From positions 1-64,000 of the forward strand of contig NZ_FNQZ01000008.1 in assembly GCF_900107545.1 (NCBI RefSeq): a stretch of DNA of 64,000 nucleotides. The letters run 5' to 3'. Shown piece by piece: positions 2,980-52,565 of the stretch. Each line of letters begins with the position of its first letter. Positions within the stretch are counted from its first letter, which is position 1. Made by a program: the position numbers and the translations under genes. Origin of the DNA: Pseudobutyrivibrio sp. ACV-2 (GTDB lineage: Bacteria > Bacillota > Clostridia > Lachnospirales > Lachnospiraceae). The notes beneath the pieces are model-generated. The model had not been told where the DNA came from and searched no databases. It worked only from the letters and a program-made list of their open reading frames with translations.

Positions 2980-3025
2980 TCGAGAACCTTGATTTTACAG
3001 CATTTCTCTAATAGATAGTGTTGGA

Positions 3026-3047
3026 TTTACAACTCATTTACAACTTT
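3026..3047 (+). repeat. Integrase arm-type direct repeats, left-end copy 1
   Basis: Two near-direct copies of TTTACAACT (3026-3047) end in TTTT. The same doublet recurs at 3196-3217, and related copies lie near the right end of the element. Spacing and proximity to the ends are as expected for integrase N-terminal-domain (arm) sites of Tn916-type integrases. Confidence 0.5.
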
Positions 3048-3101
3048 TGCAGAGGCGGTTTTTGAGGCCTCAAAGAAAGTGAGAAAGGATTTCAAAATAA
3101 C

Positions 3102-3188
3102 ATGATAAAAGTACTGTTTGTCTGCTGGGGCATGGTACTAACCGTTATATTGAAATGCTTGATTTTTAAGGATTTTTGGATGAAATAA
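3102..3188 (+). pseudogene. ptp 5' stub 2
   Basis: A second copy of the phosphatase start (MIKVLFVCWG) breaks at the same position of the active-site loop and runs into MVLTVILK and a stop at 3186-3188. The codons differ from stub 1 at several third positions, so it is not a simple duplication. It looks like the replacement 5' end delivered by an earlier element. The Cys-His-Gly has become Cys-Trp-Gly. An AAAGGA site lies at 3084-3089. Confidence 0.7.
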
Positions 3189-3195
3189 TAGTGAA

Positions 3196-3217
3196 TTTAC
3201 AACTTATTTACAACTTT
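3196..3217 (+). repeat. Integrase arm-type direct repeats, left-end copy 2
   Basis: TTTACAACT-TAT-TTACAACTTTT lies the same distance (~65 bp) inside the element end as the copy at 3026-3047, although the flanking bases differ. Conservation of this doublet alone argues that it is a protein-binding site. Confidence 0.55.
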
Positions 3218-3257
3218 TGAAAAAGTCACGATGCAAGAACAACAGTACGAAGAATAA

Positions 3258-4483: not shown

Positions 4484-5296
4484 CTATTTTTTCCCGCGCC
4501 CTTTCTTAGGAAGCATGCTTCTGTAAACGGAAGAGTACTTTTCTACCAAAGTAGTAAAGAACTGAACTTCAGCCGGATCCATTTTATTGAAGTTCATTCC
4601 AAGCTGTTTGCTCAATGTTGTCAGAGTAGCTTTCATGGGAGAAGTGGCATTAGAATACTCCTGTACTATATCGATAACTTCATTAAGAGGATTAATCGTA
4701 TCACCGGTTTCCTTGTCTTTGCTATGCTTATCTTTTATATCTTTTGCAATATTAGTAATGTCAAATCCTATTAAGCGGCTGAAATAGTCGTTTTCATTAA
4801 CTTCAGAAGCTTTGAGAGTTTGGATGTAATGATCCGAGTCGGGAATCTCATTTTTTAACTGTATCTTTGTACGCATAATGGCAACAAAGGAGTTGAGGTT
4901 ATCAATCTGCATTGATGCCATGCTGTCTATATAAATCTCCATATCGCTCATGAATTTCCAAAAGTCAGGATGCTTTATTATCTCACACAGAAGTCGGTTG
5001 TTAATGCTTCCGCTTTTTAAAATATCTATGGTAGCATCATCAAGATGAAGTTCAGAAAGAACAGCATCGGAATTCGTAACATTATCGGAAAGCCCAAGCA
5101 AATAATCGGTTGATATGTTGTAATACTGTGCCAACTTAATGATGTTCGGGTGTGGTATTTCTTTATAATCATTAGATTCATAGCTGCCAAGAGCTGATTT
5201 GGAAATACCCGTTTCCTGTTCCAATTGTTCAAGGTTAAGCCCTTTGGCATTTCGTAAATCTTTCAGTTTTTCAGCAATAGTCAATTTACATTTCAT
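4484..5296 (-). CDS. XRE-family transcriptional regulator of the element
   Basis: 270 residues. Residues ~5-65 are a lambda-repressor-type helix-turn-helix (AEKLKDLRNAKGLNLEQLEQ, TGISKSALGSYES, IPHPNIIKLAQYYNISTDYLLG). The ~200-residue C-terminal part is mostly helical and not recognised. It lacks the Ser-Lys pair of LexA/CI-type peptidases, so induction is probably not by RecA-type cleavage. It is transcribed away from the mobilization genes and ends with a basic tail (PKKGRGKK). Ribosome site AAGGAG on the reverse strand. As the only regulator in the element it is the likely switch for transfer and excision genes. An 8+8 palindrome lies upstream of it. Confidence 0.8.
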   Translation of the reverse strand: MKCKLTIAEKLKDLRNAKGLNLEQLEQETGISKSALGSYESNDYKEIPHPNIIKLAQYYNISTDYLLGLSDNVTNSDAVLSELHLDDATIDILKSGSINNRLLCEIIKHPDFWKFMSDMEIYIDSMASMQIDNLNSFVAIMRTKIQLKNEIPDSDHYIQTLKASEVNENDYFSRLIGFDITNIAKDIKDKHSKDKETGDTINPLNEVIDIVQEYSNATSPMKATLTTLSKQLGMNFNKMDPAEVQFFTTLVEKYSSVYRSMLPKKGRGKK

Positions 5297-5479: not shown

Positions 5480-5609
5480 GAATGACCGTACAAGAGGTAA
5501 CCATTTCGGGGAAGTCGGGCAATGATATGAGCCGGCCAAGATATGAGAAAACGACACAGCGCTTAAAAGAGTTGCCTGTCGGATCTTCTTGATAAAGCGG
5601 CGAATATCA

Positions 5610-5668
5610 CACCGAACACAAACAATACTTTGCTCCCTTTGATAGCGAAGTATTTGTTGTGTTTGGTG
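5610..5668. repeat. 24-bp inverted repeat, candidate oriT hairpin
   Basis: The arm CACCGAACACAAACAATACT plus TTGC (5610-5633) pairs with 5645-5668 across an 11-base loop. 20 of 24 positions are Watson-Crick, two are G-T wobbles and two adjacent positions mismatch. It lies ~290 bp upstream of the relaxase. Mobilizable elements commonly have such a repeat next to the relaxase nick site, but I cannot identify the nick itself. Confidence 0.55.
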
Positions 5669-5674
5669 CAGTGT

Positions 5675-5844
5675 CCAGAGGCACAGCCTTTGGTCAGGAA
5701 TCGAAAGGGTGAAACCCTTCGGCAGGTTAAGGGCGGCAGTCCTTATCGGGTCACGGATGAAATGCCGTGTCTGGTCAAGGACGAAGTGCCTTGTCAGGTC
5801 CAGGGCAGATGCCCGGCCCAGTTAAGTGTAGCTTGCGACACTTA
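5675..5844. repeat. Array of seven hairpins, 24-bp period
   Basis: Stems start at 5675, 5702, 5728, 5752, 5776, 5800 and 5823. The stems differ but each pairs with itself: TAAGG/CCTTA, CACGG/CCGTG, CAAGG/CCTTG, then GGGC/GCCC with outer CC/GG, and TAAGTGT/ACACTTA. Most loops are eight bases (GCGGCAGT, ATGAAATG, ACGAAGTG, AGCTTGCG) and the linkers keep TCNGGT. Different stem sequences that preserve pairing indicate selection on the folded form, as RNA or as transferred single-stranded DNA. No protein reading frame explains it. Confidence 0.75.
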
Positions 5845-5961
5845 GTACTGGGTACTATCTGTAACAGAATTCCTTAAGCGGAGCCTTTGGCGGGCCGGAA
5901 AAGAAGAAACTCTTTTACAGATAAAAGAAAAAATCATTTAGAAGAAAGGAAGAATTAGAGC

Positions 5962-7263
5962 ATGAAATTAACAAAACATAATGGTCGTTCAGGGAAAAAC
6001 GGGGCATATAATCCCAAACATAACGACCGAGAATTTGACCTTGATAATAGTGAACATATAGATAATGAAAGAGCGCTGAATAATATTTATTGGGATCGAT
6101 TTCAAGGTTACAGAGTCGGAAGCGGGGAACAACTTGAATCCCGACTGGAAGGAACGGAAGTAAAAAGTTTTGAAGAAATAGAGAAGATATTTTATCAATA
6201 TTTCTACGGGCCATATCTTGAAGCACAGAATGAAAGACATGAAAAGGCAAGACATTATGACAGGATTCGTACGATGGATGATATCCTTACTAATCCTAAA
6301 ACATGCCCTGAAGAAACAATTCTTCAGATTGGAAAATTGGAAGAAACAGTGTCGCCTGAGGTTTTGTTTACGATTGCAACGGAATATTTTGAAGAGTTTG
6401 AGAAACGATACGGAAGTCATGTTCATATCATAGACTGGGCACTTCATGTTGATGAAGGAACACCTCATATTCATGAGAGGCATGTGTTTGATGCACCGGA
6501 TGAATACGGGCTTCTGTGTCCGAGACAGGAGAAAGCTTTAGAGGAATTGGGTTTTCAATTGCCGGAACCGGACAAGAAAAGGAGCAAAGTAAATAACCGT
6601 AAAGCTGTGTTTGACAAGGAATGTCGTGAACTTCTTTTTGCAATAACGGATAAACATAAATTGGAACTTGATAAAGATCCGGTTTATGGGGGAAGGAAAT
6701 ATCTTGAAAAGCAGGATTATATTATCCAAAAGCAGAATGAAATGATTGCAAGCGGCGAGGACACACTTTCTGACATCTTAAGCAAGATTGGTGATGCGCA
6801 AACTTCCCTTGATGAAAAGACAGAAAAGCTTGAAGAAATGAATCTGAAGATTTCGGATGTTGACTCATTAATTGAAGAAGTTACTGATATAGCATATGAG
6901 AAAGCTGCGGAAATCATAACTGAAGAGGTGATAGCAGATACGAGGAAGAAGGATCTTAAGTTTATAGATGAGATGCGTAATGATTATGCTAAATCTTCTA
7001 AAATTTCGGAGAGCACCAAGTCATTTGCAAAGAAACTTCTTGATTCGCTTGAGACAAGGATGAAGAAAGCCTTCGGAATGGTTGTTGATTCTGTTAAGAA
7101 GGTAATTACAGCACCGGAAACGAAGCAACGCGTAAAGCAAGCGGTTAAGGAGGAAACGCGTACCAGCATTATGGCTCGAATGGCCGAAGCCCAGAGGCGT
7201 GTTCAGGCAGATGATGAAAAACGAAGAGGCAACAGAATAATAAACAGAGGAGTCGAAAGATAA
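5962..7263 (+). CDS. HUH relaxase (MobV/Pre-like mobilization protein)
   Basis: 433 residues. The N-terminal ~220 residues form the relaxase part. The N-terminus MKLTKHNGRSGKNGAYNPKH matches mobilization proteins of Firmicute elements, and HVHIIDWALHVDEGTPHIHE (~residues 153-172) carries the HUH metal site (PHIHxxH), with DE just before it as in MobV/Pre proteins. From ~250 to the end the protein is a long charged, coiled-coil-rich tail (DEKTEKLEEMNLKISD). It should nick the element at oriT and pilot the strand to a recipient using another element's secretion system. Start supported by GAAAGGAAG (5944-5952). It leads the operon relaxase-primase-VapE-Xis. Confidence 0.8.
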   Translation: MKLTKHNGRSGKNGAYNPKHNDREFDLDNSEHIDNERALNNIYWDRFQGYRVGSGEQLESRLEGTEVKSFEEIEKIFYQYFYGPYLEAQNERHEKARHYDRIRTMDDILTNPKTCPEETILQIGKLEETVSPEVLFTIATEYFEEFEKRYGSHVHIIDWALHVDEGTPHIHERHVFDAPDEYGLLCPRQEKALEELGFQLPEPDKKRSKVNNRKAVFDKECRELLFAITDKHKLELDKDPVYGGRKYLEKQDYIIQKQNEMIASGEDTLSDILSKIGDAQTSLDEKTEKLEEMNLKISDVDSLIEEVTDIAYEKAAEIITEEVIADTRKKDLKFIDEMRNDYAKSSKISESTKSFAKKLLDSLETRMKKAFGMVVDSVKKVITAPETKQRVKQAVKEETRTSIMARMAEAQRRVQADDEKRRGNRIINRGVER

Positions 7264-7277
7264 GGAGGAATTGAATA

Positions 7278-7901
7278 TTGGTAGATTTTAGAGCAATTAA
7301 GGAAGCTGTCACCACTAAGGAGGCGGCTTCTTTTTATGGAATTAAGGTGGGCAGAAACGGAATGTGTCGATGCCCGTTTCATGATGATCATACACCAAGC
7401 ATGAAGGTGGATAAGCGTTTTATTTGCTTTGGATGTCAGGAAAAAGGTGACGTTATTGATTTTGTGGCAAAATTATTTGGCTTGGATGCAAAAGAAGCAG
7501 CTGAAAAGATAGCAGTGGATTTTGGCATAGCGGCGGATATTTCCGATATGGAGAAATACCGACAATCGCAGTATGCAATGCAACAAAAGAAATCCGAACA
7601 GCAGATTTTTTATGAGAGAAAACGTGAACTGATAAAGGTAATCGGAAATCTAATGAATGATATCCGGGAGATCAAATCGGAGTATGCACCGGAAACACCG
7701 ATGTTGGATATGTGTGATCAATTGTTTGTCATGGCTTGTCATGATTTTGAATATGTCTGTTATCTGTACGATTACATCGTGTTTGATGTAACGGATGATG
7801 TACTTAAGACAGAAATTGAATTTTTGGAGAAGGAGGTTAATAAGATAAATGCAAGATACAGAAGTGAAAGAAATCAGAAAAACAATAAAAGAGTCTCTTA
7901 G
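7278..7901 (+). CDS. CHC2 zinc-finger primase-like protein
   Basis: 207 residues, TTG start eight bases after AAGGAGGAA (7262-7270). Residues ~20-75 are a DnaG-type zinc ribbon: NGMCRCPFHDDHTPSMKV and RFICFGCQEKGDVIDFV, with the C-x-C-x2-H and C-x2-C ligand pattern, then a helix KEAAEKIAVDFGI. The toprim catalytic domain is absent; the remainder is helical and acidic. It overlaps the next gene by 53 bp in another frame, so the two are translationally coupled. Together with the VapE-type ATPase it is probably a replication module for maintenance after excision or complementary-strand synthesis after transfer. Confidence 0.8.
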   Translation: MVDFRAIKEAVTTKEAASFYGIKVGRNGMCRCPFHDDHTPSMKVDKRFICFGCQEKGDVIDFVAKLFGLDAKEAAEKIAVDFGIAADISDMEKYRQSQYAMQQKKSEQQIFYERKRELIKVIGNLMNDIREIKSEYAPETPMLDMCDQLFVMACHDFEYVCYLYDYIVFDVTDDVLKTEIEFLEKEVNKINARYRSERNQKNNKRVS

Positions 7902-9180
7902 TAAAAATGAGAGAAACTTACCGTGCACTACCATTAATAATGCTCTTATTATTCTTAAAAATGATCCTCTGTTTGCTGATAATATTCGAGAAAATACTTT
8001 TAGAAATCGAATAGAACTTTTGGGTGAAATGCCATGGAGCAGAAAAAGTATAGATATCACTGACAAGGACGACATTCATATCATTTATCATTTTGAAAAG
8101 AATTATGCTTACAGAAGTGATAAGGCATTGAAACAGGCTATGGTAATTGTAGCCGCAGAGAGCGAATATCATCCGGTTCGTGAATATCTTGATTCACTCG
8201 TATGGGATAAAGTTCCGAGGATAAGAGGTGCCCTTCATCATTTTCTTGGAGCCGATGAGAGTGATTACACATATGAGTGCTTAAAGTTGTTTATGCTCGG
8301 AGCAATCAGCAGAATATTTGACCCGGGATGTAAGTTTGAGTATATGCTTTGCCTCGTGGGTGGTCAGGGAGCCGGTAAATCAACGTTTGTAAGATTTATG
8401 GCTACATTTGATCAATGGTTTACGGATGATATAAAGAAGCTTGATGATGATAAGGTTTATGAGCACCTTGAAGGCCATTGGATATGTGAAATAGCAGAAA
8501 TGTATGCCGTTATAAATACGCGTTATAACGAAGCAACAAAGGCGTTTTTGAGCAAACAGTATGATAACTATAGAATACCGTATGCCTTAAGAGCCGAAGA
8601 TATACCAAGGCAGTGCGTGTTTGTCGGAACTTCCAATACAACGAATTTCTTGCCGCTTGATAGGTCAGGCAATAGAAGATTTCTTCCTGTTATGTGTCAT
8701 GCAGATGAGGCACAAACCCATATTTTGGAAGATGAGGATGCATCTCGTGCGTATATTGAGCAGATGTGGGCTGAAGCTATGGAGATTTATAAAGCCGGAA
8801 ATATTAAGCTTAAGCTTCCGAAGGAAATAGAAAAGAATCTTGTGGAATATCAAAGTCCGTTTATGCAGGAAGATACATGGATGGGACTTATTACGGAATG
8901 GCTTGAAAACTATACCGGCAATCTTGTATGTTCCAGAATGCTTTATAACGAAGCACTTGAGATGCTTGGAAATCCGAAGAACTCGGAATCGCGTCAGATT
9001 GGTGAAATCATGAATATGCTACCGGGCTGGAGAGCATTTCAGAATCCCAGACGAATATCGGCTGCTTATGGAAAACAGCGTGGTTGGGAACGTCTGGAAA
9101 CAAACTCCGGCAACAAAGGGACAGAAAGTGATTTTGTGGAAGCGGTTCAAGAGGAGATACCTCCGGAATGGCTTAAATAA
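7849..9180 (+). CDS. VapE/VirE-family ATPase (replicative helicase-like)
   Basis: 443 residues. The Walker A motif GGQGAGKST lies at residues 171-179 and a Walker B-like HWICEIAEMYAV at ~205-216. The sensor/arginine region FVGTSNTTNFLPLDRSGNRR is the signature of virulence-associated protein E (DUF5906-like) ATPases, and YLDSLVWDKVPRI before the P-loop is also typical. Members act as SF3-like helicases with primases of phages and mobile elements. Starts inside the primase gene, after AAGGAGG (7831-7837). The C-terminus (EIPPEWLK) is complete. Confidence 0.85.
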   Translation: MQDTEVKEIRKTIKESLSKNERNLPCTTINNALIILKNDPLFADNIRENTFRNRIELLGEMPWSRKSIDITDKDDIHIIYHFEKNYAYRSDKALKQAMVIVAAESEYHPVREYLDSLVWDKVPRIRGALHHFLGADESDYTYECLKLFMLGAISRIFDPGCKFEYMLCLVGGQGAGKSTFVRFMATFDQWFTDDIKKLDDDKVYEHLEGHWICEIAEMYAVINTRYNEATKAFLSKQYDNYRIPYALRAEDIPRQCVFVGTSNTTNFLPLDRSGNRRFLPVMCHADEAQTHILEDEDASRAYIEQMWAEAMEIYKAGNIKLKLPKEIEKNLVEYQSPFMQEDTWMGLITEWLENYTGNLVCSRMLYNEALEMLGNPKNSESRQIGEIMNMLPGWRAFQNPRRISAAYGKQRGWERLETNSGNKGTESDFVEAVQEEIPPEWLK

Positions 9181-9206: not shown

Positions 9207-9506
9207 ATGAATGATGAAATAAAAGTTTTAAGACGTTTGTTGCCATACTTTGTTGCCGGCAAACGAAAAACTGGAAGGAAGGAAGTGAAGCGGGTGGTAA
9301 ACGAAAAGAAATATAAGATTCCGTTATGGAAGAAGTACTCGCTTAGTGTATATGAAGCTGCAGAGTATTTTGGCATTGGTGAAAGAAAACTCAGACAAAT
9401 AGCCGAGGACAATGCCGGAGCAGAATTTCTTCTTGAGATAGGAAGTCATATACGCTTCAAAAGAGAACTGTTTTCGAGATATCTTGATGAGGTATCCGTA
9501 ATATAA
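9207..9506 (+). CDS. xis: Excisionase, Tn916 Xis family
   Basis: 99 residues as called from ATG 9207 (AAGGAG at 9190-9195). The conserved part is IPLWKKYSLSVYEAAEYFGI, then GERKLRQIAEDN and a basic-aromatic end KRELFSRYLDE, the winged-helix layout of Tn916 Xis (usually 65-70 residues). The extra N-terminal ~29 residues are basic. An internal GTG at 9294 after GGAAGGAAG would give the standard length, so both starts are possible. Xis bends DNA and directs the integrase toward excision. It directly precedes int. Confidence 0.85.
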   Translation: MNDEIKVLRRLLPYFVAGKRKTGRKEVKRVVNEKKYKIPLWKKYSLSVYEAAEYFGIGERKLRQIAEDNAGAEFLLEIGSHIRFKRELFSRYLDEVSVI

Positions 9507-9612: not shown

Positions 9613-10812
9613 ATGAGTGAGAAACGTAGAGATAATAAGAATCGTATTCTTCACAATGGAGAAAGCCAGCGAAAAGATGGACGATATATGTTCAAATATG
9701 TTGATGAGAACGGAAAAGCAAAGTATTTTTACAGCTGGAGATTGGATAAAAATGATGTAATGCCAAGAGGTAAAAAAAGTGAACCGTCATTAAGGGAAAA
9801 GGAAAAAGAATTGGAACAGAATCTATTTAACGGATTGGTTTCCGATGGAGCAAATATGACGGTGCTTGAACTTGTAGAAAAGTATCTTTCCTTGAAAACC
9901 GGAGTAAGGCATAATACTGAAGCTAATTACAAATTTGTTGTCAACATTATAAAAAAAGAAGCATTTGGCAAAAAGAGAATTGATAAGGTTAAGGAATCGG
10001 ATGCAAAGGGATGGCTTATTAAGCTTCAGGACGATGGAAGAGGATATAGCACCATCCATACGGTGAGAGGTGTTGTAAGACCTGCATTTCAAATGGCAGT
10101 TAAAGATGATTTGATTCGCAAAAATCCTTTTGAGTTTCAACTTGCAACTGTCGTAGTTAATGATTCTGTTACCAGAGAAGCTGTATCAAGAGCAGATGAG
10201 CGCAGATTCCTCAATTTTGTTAAGGAAGATCCGCACTATTGCAGATATTATGAAGGAATGTTCATTCTGTTTAATACAGGGCTTCGTATTTCTGAATTTG
10301 TTGGACTTACTATGTCAGATATAGATTTCGAAAACATGAAAATCAATGTTACGCATCAGTTACAGAGAAAGCGTGATATGGAATATATCATTGAAGATAC
10401 AAAGACTGCATGCGGAACCAGACAGGTACCTATGACAGAGGAAGTTGCAGAATGCTTTAGAAGAATAATTGCTAATCGTCCACATTATAAAGTTGAGCCT
10501 ATTATAGACGGATATGCAGGTTTCTTATACCTGGATAAAGATAATAATCCTATGGTAGCTCTTCATTGGGAAAAGTATTTTCAGCATGCTTTAGAGAAGT
10601 TTAACAGTATATATAAGGATGAACTTCCTAAAATAACGCCCCATGTATGCAGGCATACATTTTGTTCTAATATGGCAAAAGCCGGAATGAATCCGAAGAC
10701 TTTGCAGTATATTATGGGTCATGCTGATATAGGTGTTACGCTTAACACTTATACACATCTTTCCTTTGATGATGCCAAGGAAGAAATGGATAGGCTTGTC
10801 GTAAATGAGTAA
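9613..10812 (+). CDS. int: Tyrosine recombinase/integrase, Tn916 type
   Basis: 399 residues, the usual size. An N-terminal arm-binding domain (HNGESQRKDGRYMFKYVDENG) is followed by a SAM-like core-binding domain (~80-180) and the catalytic domain. Active-site residues are visible: R225 (GLRISE), H344-x2-R347-H348 (HVCRHTFCS), H370 (GHADI) and the nucleophile Y380 (LNTYTH). AGGAG lies ten bases before the ATG. It catalyses integration into and excision from ptp. Arm-type repeats TTTACAACT lie at both element ends. No frameshift or missing residue, so it appears functional. Confidence 0.95.
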   Translation: MSEKRRDNKNRILHNGESQRKDGRYMFKYVDENGKAKYFYSWRLDKNDVMPRGKKSEPSLREKEKELEQNLFNGLVSDGANMTVLELVEKYLSLKTGVRHNTEANYKFVVNIIKKEAFGKKRIDKVKESDAKGWLIKLQDDGRGYSTIHTVRGVVRPAFQMAVKDDLIRKNPFEFQLATVVVNDSVTREAVSRADERRFLNFVKEDPHYCRYYEGMFILFNTGLRISEFVGLTMSDIDFENMKINVTHQLQRKRDMEYIIEDTKTACGTRQVPMTEEVAECFRRIIANRPHYKVEPIIDGYAGFLYLDKDNNPMVALHWEKYFQHALEKFNSIYKDELPKITPHVCRHTFCSNMAKAGMNPKTLQYIMGHADIGVTLNTYTHLSFDDAKEEMDRLVVNE

Positions 10813-10839: not shown

Positions 10840-10944
10840 AAATTTACAACTTTTTTTACAACTTTTGCTGATACTTTTATGCAAGATTATGACAGAATAC
10901 GCCATTTTATGTATTTATTCATCTGTTGTAAAGGAGTTGTAAAT
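10840..10944. repeat. Right-end integrase arm sites, direct and inverted
   Basis: AATTTACAACTTTTTTTACA plus ACTTTT (10841-10866) matches the left-end doublets. GTTGTAAAGGAGTTGTAAAT (10924-10943) carries the same motif inverted. Together they bracket 60 bp just inside the right end, as expected for recombinase arm binding. Confidence 0.55.
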
Positions 10945-10979: not shown

Positions 10980-11432
10980 ATGATTCGAGTGCTTTTCATC
11001 TGCCACGGCAGCATATGTCGCTCGCCTATGGCTAAATATGTTTTACAGGATATGGTGGAAAAAAGAGGAATAGCACAGGAGTTTTACATTGACTGTGCAG
11101 CCATGACCTACGAGGAAATAGGCAATCCTGTGTATCCACCAGTGCGTCAGTTGTTAAATGAAAAAGGCATTGATTGCAGTGGCTATGGTGCTCGTCATGT
11201 CAGAAGAGATGAGTATAGAGATTTTGATTATATCATTGGCATGGATGCAGAAAATATGCATGACTTATCCCATGAATTTGGGCCAGACCCTGATAATAAA
11301 ATCTTTAGACTTTTAGATTTTACAGACAGACCTCGTGATATAGATGATCCTTGGTATACTCGTAAGTTTGATATTTGCTATAATGATGTCCTAAGGGGCT
11401 GCGAAGGATTATTGAAGCACTTAGGATACTAA
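10980..11432 (+). CDS. Low-molecular-weight protein tyrosine phosphatase (integration target)
   Basis: 150 residues. The active-site loop C8-HGSIC-R14-S gives the Cys-x5-Arg-Ser motif, and the general-acid Asp lies in DIDDPWYTRKF (~residue 122-123). It hydrolyses phosphotyrosine (or acts as an arsenate-reductase-like enzyme) in the cytoplasm. The first ~11 codons and the ribosome site (AGAGGA, 10965) come from the mobile element; the gene body is chromosomal. The gene is therefore kept intact but re-promoted by the element, while two older 5' stubs remain at 2932 and 3102. Confidence 0.9.
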   Translation: MIRVLFICHGSICRSPMAKYVLQDMVEKRGIAQEFYIDCAAMTYEEIGNPVYPPVRQLLNEKGIDCSGYGARHVRRDEYRDFDYIIGMDAENMHDLSHEFGPDPDNKIFRLLDFTDRPRDIDDPWYTRKFDICYNDVLRGCEGLLKHLGY

Positions 11433-52258: not shown

Positions 52259-52565
52259 GGTTGCAACACACATATACACAAAATACATTTGGAAATACGT
52301 CTTGCTCCCCATAGCTTGATAGCCCGGTCGATTTTGGAATGAGCTTAGTGAAATGGAAAATCAGCTTTGAGAATTTGGGCAGACCGAGCCATGGACGGCG
52401 AGGTCAAGGAGATGCTGAGCATGGATGCGAATATCGACTGGTGCCCAAATTCACAAAGGTTATTTTCCAATTTCACTTAGCGAATGGAGTATGAGACTGG
52501 GTTATCAAGCTATGGGGCGCAAGAAGTATTCACAGCCTAAAATCGTGTATATGTGTGTTGCAACC
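52259..52565. repeat. ~307-bp nested palindrome
   Basis: Outer arms of 21 bp (52259-52279 and 52545-52565) are perfectly complementary. A second arm pair of 29 bp (52301 with 52495-52523, including CCCCATAGCTTGATA) has three non-identical positions, and a third of ~40 bp (52342-52382 with 52442-52482, including TTAGTGAAAT and AATTTGGGCA) has few mismatches. The ~60-base apex contains GACC..GGTC. The whole region can fold into one long interrupted hairpin. No gene, no T-run, no target-site duplication obvious. Confidence 0.85.

Follow-up and report, generated by a model that had tools for sequence, protein, structure and literature searches.

A row of short hairpins lies just before the mob (relaxase) gene of a small mobile element in Pseudobutyrivibrio sp. 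ACV-2 and runs into the likely oriT of that element, which raises the question of what such a row does and whether it does so as DNA or as RNA. The window analysed here is the whole stretch of 64,000 nucleotides from which the locus was taken (contig NZ_FNQZ01000008.1, positions 1 to 64,000, forward strand). Our tentative reading, to which we give somewhat less than an even chance, is that the array belongs to an extended MOBV oriT, of which it makes up the upstream half, its single-stranded DNA hairpins standing on the trailing end of the transferred strand and most likely constituting a single-strand origin (sso). Repeats of TTTACAACTT occur at both ends of the element (3025-3050, 3194-3219 and 10841-10868) and resemble Tn916-type integrase arm sites. 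The element is inserted where a gene for a low-molecular-weight phosphatase begins, with TCTGCCACGGCA at 2951-2962 and 10999-11010. To the left of the element, two degenerate copies of the phosphatase gene start were seen by eye (~2930-2965 and ~3105-3140), which gives the impression of repeated insertion by different elements at this site. The genes of the element that surround the array are as follows:

4484-5296, minus strand: HTH regulator, divergent (profile match)
5962-7263, plus strand: divergent MOBV-like relaxase with HxxR, NxY and HxDExTPHxH motifs (motifs, profile searches)
7278-7901, plus strand: CHC2 zinc-finger (DnaG-type) protein (profile match)
7849-9180, plus strand: VapE-like protein (profile match)
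9207-9506, plus strand: Tn916-type excisionase, Xis (profile match)
9613-10812, plus strand: Tn916-type integrase, Int (profile match)

The relaxase is termed MOBV-like, and is not filed as a member of the family, since it scored below the cut-offs of the curated profiles (19.8 bits against Mob_Pre, cut-off 25.5; 18.1 against NCBIfam MobV, cut-off 100). Compared with the MOBV motif list of PMC5090054, motif I (HxxR) is present as HNDR, invariant in 17 of 17 aligned relatives, while motif III reads HVDEGTPHIH in the window, with H, D, E, T, P and H invariant in all 17 and the last H conserved in at least 90%. The motif II region reads NxYWD, with N41-x-Y43 invariant in the 17 relatives, where the MOBV form is NY(D/E)L with the catalytic Tyr. 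The relaxase profile matched MobM (4lvi) at E 0.0081, a value equalled by a designed helix bundle (E 0.008), and the structure model (pLDDT 66.8) found its best PDB match at E 0.58, with relaxases among the weak matches from E 1.1. Additionally, PLSDB assigns the plasmid of one relative (L042) to MOBV. Blautia and a Lachnospiraceae MAG are among the relatives with a name. The CHC2/VapE pair was rejected as an obligatory partner: a CHC2 match was found in 34 of the 39 oriT-bearing loci (all except L003, L004, L019, L024 and L037), in a set where several loci end ~1.5 kb past mob, and a P4/D5-type protein was seen in L003 and a DinD-type protein in L061.

The structured elements between the regulator and the relaxase are listed below:

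5610-5668, plus strand: leader hairpin with 25-nt arms and a 9-nt loop (inverted repeat, RNA and DNA folds)
5675-5693, plus strand: array hairpin 1, CCAGAGGC-ACA-GCCTTTGG (sequence, folds)
5702-5721, plus strand: array hairpin 2, GAA triloop and one bulged A (sequence, hairpin walk)
5728-5745, plus strand: array hairpin 3, GGCA loop (sequence, hairpin walk)
5752-5769, plus strand: array hairpin 4, read as a GAA triloop with a bulged G (sequence, hairpin walk)
5776-5793, plus strand: array hairpin 5, read as a GAA triloop with a bulged G (sequence, hairpin walk)
5800-5816, plus strand: array hairpin 6, abutting the oriT hairpin (sequence, hairpin walk)
5817-5852, plus strand: oriT hairpin (covariation, model match, layout as in pMV158 IR3)
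5852-5853, plus strand: predicted relaxase nick G/T (analogy with pMV158, PMC5863519)
5858-5868, plus strand: small post-nick hairpin TCTG-TAA-CAGA (sequence)

The hairpins were confirmed as real, and with either RNA energies (z -5.87) or DNA energies (z -5.61) the region 5590-5930 folds better than every one of its 100 dinucleotide-shuffled versions. The original prediction described seven stems starting at 5675, 5702, 5728, 5752, 5776, 5800 and 5823, which can be read off the sequence exactly so, and the relaxase does start 118 bases downstream, as claimed. Six of these hairpins (5675-5816) belong to the array, while the seventh (5823-5844) forms part of a separate hairpin at 5817-5852, as its inner stem; the array had been placed beside the relaxase and its ending in the oriT had been overlooked. 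Start-to-start distances are 27, 26, 24, 24, 24 and 23 bases, and the proposed 24-base period is therefore restricted to the middle of the array. Likewise, the TCNGGT linker holds between hairpins 3-4, 4-5 and 5-6, but the first two linkers read TCAGGA and GCAGGT. The 8-nt loops attributed to the units can, in hairpins 4 and 5, alternatively be drawn as two extra base pairs (A5757-T5763 and T5758-A5762; A5781-T5787 and C5782-G5786, respectively) closing a GAA triloop with one bulged G, pairs that the energy model itself keeps open. The identical 18 letters of hairpin 4 are also found in L020, L029 and L070, and those of hairpin 5 in L014, L015, L016 and L071. Furthermore, the array is led by an imperfect inverted repeat absent from the earlier description (arms 5610-5634 and 5644-5668, 84% complementary), and long inverted repeats lie 5' of the arrays in many, though not all, relatives. 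The prediction had also set aside CRISPR and coding functions: the former is ruled out by the absence of identical repeats, and a coding array is disfavoured because, in relatives, many distances between units are not divisible by three and an overlapping ORF of 71 aa matched nothing in Pfam.

The hairpin in which the array ends is composed of an outer stem (5817-5821/5848-5852, CCCAG/CTGGG) and an inner stem (5823-5829/5838-5844), with a 3-nt bulge (GTA, 5845-5847) in its 3' arm. IR3 of the pMV158 oriT (MOBV1, relaxase MobM) is described as a 12-bp stem whose right arm carries a bulge of 3 nt and which ends 3' at the G/T nick, the mob-coding strand being the transferred strand (PMC5863519). 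The two are alike in lying 5' of mob, in their inner and outer stem, in the 3-nt bulge of the 3' arm, in the G/T at the 3' end and in lying on the coding strand, and because of this agreement in layout, strand and place the relaxase is predicted, by analogy, to nick at G5852/T5853. The MOBV-type layout, i.e. a hairpin 5' of mob on the coding strand with a putative G/T nick at its 3' end, was found in 39 of 43 loci. In contrast to the window, the pMV158-type sequence compared (E. faecium plasmid stretch L116) has different stem letters and by eye no array; nor was such an array seen by eye in S. suis L115 or P. megaterium L118, and the oriT model R1 matched none of L115-L118. The small hairpin that follows the nick is represented in relatives by CCTG/CAGG, CTTG/CAAG and CACT/AGTG stems (by eye). 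In many relatives the nick is also followed by a hairpin resembling GCGGCTTCGCCGC, the complement of which contains a C(GAA)G loop, on the strand opposite to the GAA loops of the array; that form is absent from the window near 5875-5900.

Further counterparts were found in elements whose relaxases score above the Pfam Mob_Pre cut-off (L050, L109 and L110), in which R1 also marks the oriT, seen by eye as a CCCAC...ATA-GTGGG/TTA hairpin with one small hairpin just 5' of it. L117, beside a TnpW-family gene, similarly displays a CCCAC...GTGGG/TTA hairpin preceded by one small hairpin (by eye). All four differ from the window in having a single hairpin where the window has an array, and the Mob_Pre elements compared carry none or one such hairpin; the array may be an expansion of the single, unit-like hairpin seen in L050, L109 and L110. 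L117 itself (CP123681.1, 75661-78215) comprises a Mob_Pre-like gene and the adjacent TnpW-family gene in an IncHI2A Salmonella plasmid.

The proposal that the variable stems undergo compensatory change was borne out both in the oriT hairpin and in the array. The loci examined numbered 43 (L001-L043, including the window's own L009; some near-identical), and the terminal hairpin was missing from L008, L010, L012 and L043. For the oriT alignment (A1), the remaining 39 loci were reduced to 33 distinct stretches by dropping six identical ones, and then to 29 by omitting L005, L006, L007 and L021, which carry long insertions. In these 29 relatives, 93.1% of stem cells were paired, compared to at most 47.4% in slid versions, and double changes affected 62 cells (14.6 in shuffles). 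Counted by pair, those with changes in both arms number 7 versus 5.3 shuffled, an unremarkable excess that 26 of 500 shuffles reached. The arms of the array were tested with an anchor on the AGG and CC runs, not on folding, and with 3' arms swapped as the shuffle. Watson-Crick cells accounted for 106 of 244, compared to 79.4 in shuffles (none of 2000 as high), with G.T and A.C both under their shuffled means. This anchor had been narrowed after a looser one gave z 7.7 for all pairs and just z 2.0 for distinct pairs; applied to the relaxase genes as a control, the looser anchor yielded no signal (z -0.3 and 0.3).

The oriT model is strongly associated with the relaxase. Among 397 genomes of the family, searched for the relaxase at E 1e-15 and for R1 at E 0.001, 47 contained the relaxase, 50 contained R1 and 41 contained both, where 5.9 would be expected if the two were independent, and in each of the 41 the R1 match lay within ~300 bases of the relaxase match. 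Outside the family, R1 was found in 7 of 391 genomes of the class and the relaxase in 4 of 398 genomes of the phylum (the window's genome being counted in both), and a search of viral_contigs for the relaxase returned no match. The relaxase is also present in two Kurthia plasmids (Bacilli; L040 and L041), in which its annotation reads serine/arginine repetitive matrix protein or hypothetical, both plasmids being typed non-mobilizable. R1 was unaccompanied by a relaxase match in nine of its 50 genomes. The sequence stops 73 bases beyond R1 in G042 and ~650 bases beyond it in G130, and no relaxase match occurs in the 7.2 kb downstream of R1 in G080, nor in G009 and G328, although a remnant start is legible by eye in G009; G380 carries R1 beside a 26-residue relaxase remnant, G289 and G119 carry it with a Mob_Pre relaxase, and the G390 match looks like a chance terminator-like palindrome. 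The six relaxase genomes (of 47) with no R1 match are G041, G114, G249, G292, G336 and G383; by eye, an oriT-like hairpin is nevertheless present in G383 (L063) and G041 (L068), but not in G336 (L065) or G114 (L066).

Hairpin number ranged from 1 to 11 per locus in an automatic walk from the oriT, which sometimes counted leader hairpins in. The original prediction expected homologues to retain pairing while their sequence varied, and this holds for the structure at large; conversely, a locus with a relaxase ~50% identical (L012/L113) has no array in the 480 bases read and no R1 match within 18 kb, and a relative from the same genus as the window (L049/L051) has one hairpin only (by eye). Since relatives keep hairpins while the number and letters of these change, single-stranded shape seems to matter more than exact sequence.

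With regard to the strand, folding favoured the coding strand over its complement in all 33 arrays with RNA energies and in 32 of 33 with DNA energies. This bias was greater with RNA than with DNA energies and exceeded the shuffled mean in 29 of 32 regions (RNA; mean z 1.53) and 26 of 32 (DNA; mean z 0.93), ~60% of it being expected from composition (DNA energies: 5.02 real, 3.06 shuffled). Wobble pairs in the inner oriT stem were 25 G.T against 3 A.C, compared to one of each in the outer stem and 11 G.T against 6 A.C in the last array hairpin. Loops were counted in 42 non-redundant regions (59 pattern matches minus five chance sites gave 54; the promoter scan used 40), taking hairpins with at least 4 Watson-Crick pairs up to 200 nt upstream of the oriT and comparing them with dinucleotide shuffles. 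Loops of 3 nt were seen 62 times (31.7 in shuffles), followed by 4 nt (30; 28.8), 5 nt (29; 20.6), 6 nt (16; 18.6), 7 nt (23; 16.7) and 8 nt (28; 15.3). GNA triloops on the mob-coding strand numbered 21 against 2.5 expected (maximum 7 in 60 shuffle sets), whereas neither the complement-strand equivalent TNC (2 versus 1.6) nor RNA-type GNRA loops (2 versus 1.4) were enriched in these regions. GNA loops form a stable class in DNA. In DNA triloops the first and third base are reported to dominate stability, and GAA-loop hairpins melt near 73 C (PMC5090098, which also cites work on d(cGNNAg) loops and triloops). The GNA enrichment supports, but does not prove, a DNA structure, because shared ancestry of the units inflates the counts and triloops exist in RNA as well; it lends indirect support to a structure acting at the level of single-stranded DNA.

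These data also bear on the possibility that a dimeric protein binds the array as a set of double-stranded sites (iterons). The almost regular spacing and the inverted repeats would suit such sites; however, pairing is kept while sequence varies, G.T far outnumbers A.C in the inner oriT stem and loop types differ between the strands, and we regard iterons as highly improbable. Equally remote in our estimation is that one ancestral hairpin beside the oriT simply multiplied without selection. Hairpin number does vary within the genus (one in L049 by eye, six in the window), as such neutral expansion would allow, yet the within-unit pairing and the loop enrichment suggest selection on structure.

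Three readings had been offered for the array, namely an RNA array, a translation regulator for the relaxase and a single-stranded DNA structure on the transferred strand. The last is favoured here because the array runs straight into a MOBV-type oriT and because the wobbles and DNA-type loops point to the mob-coding strand. The two RNA readings, in which the array would form a structured 5' UTR of the mob mRNA that controls translation or binds a regulator, fared less well and are considered quite unlikely. The array is on the mob strand, its RNA-energy z of -5.87 and its larger strand bias with RNA energies would fit a transcript, and the divergent HTH regulator upstream could control one. 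Moreover, SGI1 requires a small RNA, sgm-sRNA, encoded beside its oriT for mobilisation (PMC9299015), although this acts as RNA in enteric hosts and with tyrosine-recombinase-like mobilisation proteins. Against a leader stand the enrichment of GNA triloops but not of GNRA loops, the zero gap between array and oriT, and the promoter and family searches. Sigma-70 promoters were not enriched in the 300 nt upstream in 40 regions (plus strand 7.5 versus 7.56 shuffled, minus strand 7.67 versus 7.55, sd 0.13), in a scan that would miss a folded promoter distant from consensus, nor was a conserved one found between oriT and mob in 34 sequences (6.01 versus 6.27). A known RNA family was likewise rejected for the array, as no Rfam family reached its gathering score and the sub-threshold matches were unrelated.

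The preferred reading, an extended oriT with trailing single-stranded DNA hairpins, starts from conserved mob-coding-strand hairpins that end in a pMV158-like oriT hairpin. The relaxase would nick at G5852/T5853 and the strand would then leave with mob in front, led by the relaxase, and the leader hairpin, array and oriT hairpin would consequently come last, forming the final stretch of the transferred strand or of the strand displaced in rolling-circle replication. There they would fold as single-stranded DNA and, judging by position and form, the array may act as a single-strand origin, a fold that keeps the DNA accessible so that the complementary strand can be primed; synthesis begun at this site could cover almost all of the strand without interruption. 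Stem letters and number would be free to drift because recognition would target shape, loops and spacing. Most rolling-circle plasmids keep their sso on the last stretch of the transferred strand, although an ICE is argued to fare better with an sso downstream of the oriT (PMC4595007). IMESag-rpsI has a downstream ssoA (PMC5090054), an arrangement for which the window has no room since its CHC2 gene begins 14 bases past mob.

The sso elements pBAA1 sso, ICEBs1 sso1, ssoA and ssoU resemble the array in being folded, orientation-specific DNA, and pBAA1 sso and ICEBs1 sso1 contain three stem-loops each (PMC4595007). The likeness is one of form, and the window's array differs in that an RNA-polymerase promoter was not detected in it; such a promoter was rejected as a component of the array on either strand, and with no sigma-70 promoter enriched an RNA-polymerase-type sso is not supported. 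A promoter-like site on the minus strand of the window (5677-5649) overlaps the leader hairpin, its 9 of 12 matches being within chance. None of these four sso elements is known to be a tandem array of 24-nt units.

Alternatively, hairpins on the displaced strand could keep the oriT single-stranded, or hold the relaxase or its partners for nicking and end-joining, with no part in priming. The direct abutment of array and oriT hairpin, the strong association with this relaxase (41 genomes with both, 5.9 expected) and the one hairpin at the same place in L050, L109 and L110 are consistent with such an aid to the relaxosome or to termination. However, by eye the array hairpins are unlike the oriT inner stem, and their number varies from 1 to 11 by automatic count; we consider this explanation unlikely. 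The same dissimilarity of stems means that the array hairpins are not simple relaxase decoys, a candidate that was rejected.

If the single-strand origin reading is taken further, the array might prime or organise second-strand synthesis in mobilizable elements of Clostridia and constitute a so far undescribed class of single-stranded DNA element, expandable, sequence-plastic, fused to the oriT at the trailing end of the transferred strand, marked by DNA-type GNA triloops and recognised more by shape than by sequence, a proposal that is possible but doubtful. Titles and abstracts on MOBV oriT hairpins, sso, leading-region single-stranded DNA promoters, Lachnospiraceae MOBV IMEs and relaxase-linked RNA revealed no such array, which is weak evidence of novelty. 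As of 2015, virtually nothing was known for any ICE of how the transferred strand becomes duplex (PMC4595007). Strand-to-duplex conversion of integrating elements is little known, and a candidate structure at the oriT would be relevant to how these bacteria exchange genes, as about one in ten sampled genomes of the family (41 of 397) carries the relaxase and the oriT model side by side.

Two further structures were noted. In L022, L028, L032, L057 and L060, a T-tailed hairpin whose core resembles CAACCGTAAAAAGTTG recurs ~250-400 nt before the oriT, upstream of the array (by eye). Additionally, a TwoAYGGAY RNA (RF01731) was identified elsewhere in the window, at 52333-52492, with a score of 61.8 bits, over its gathering score.
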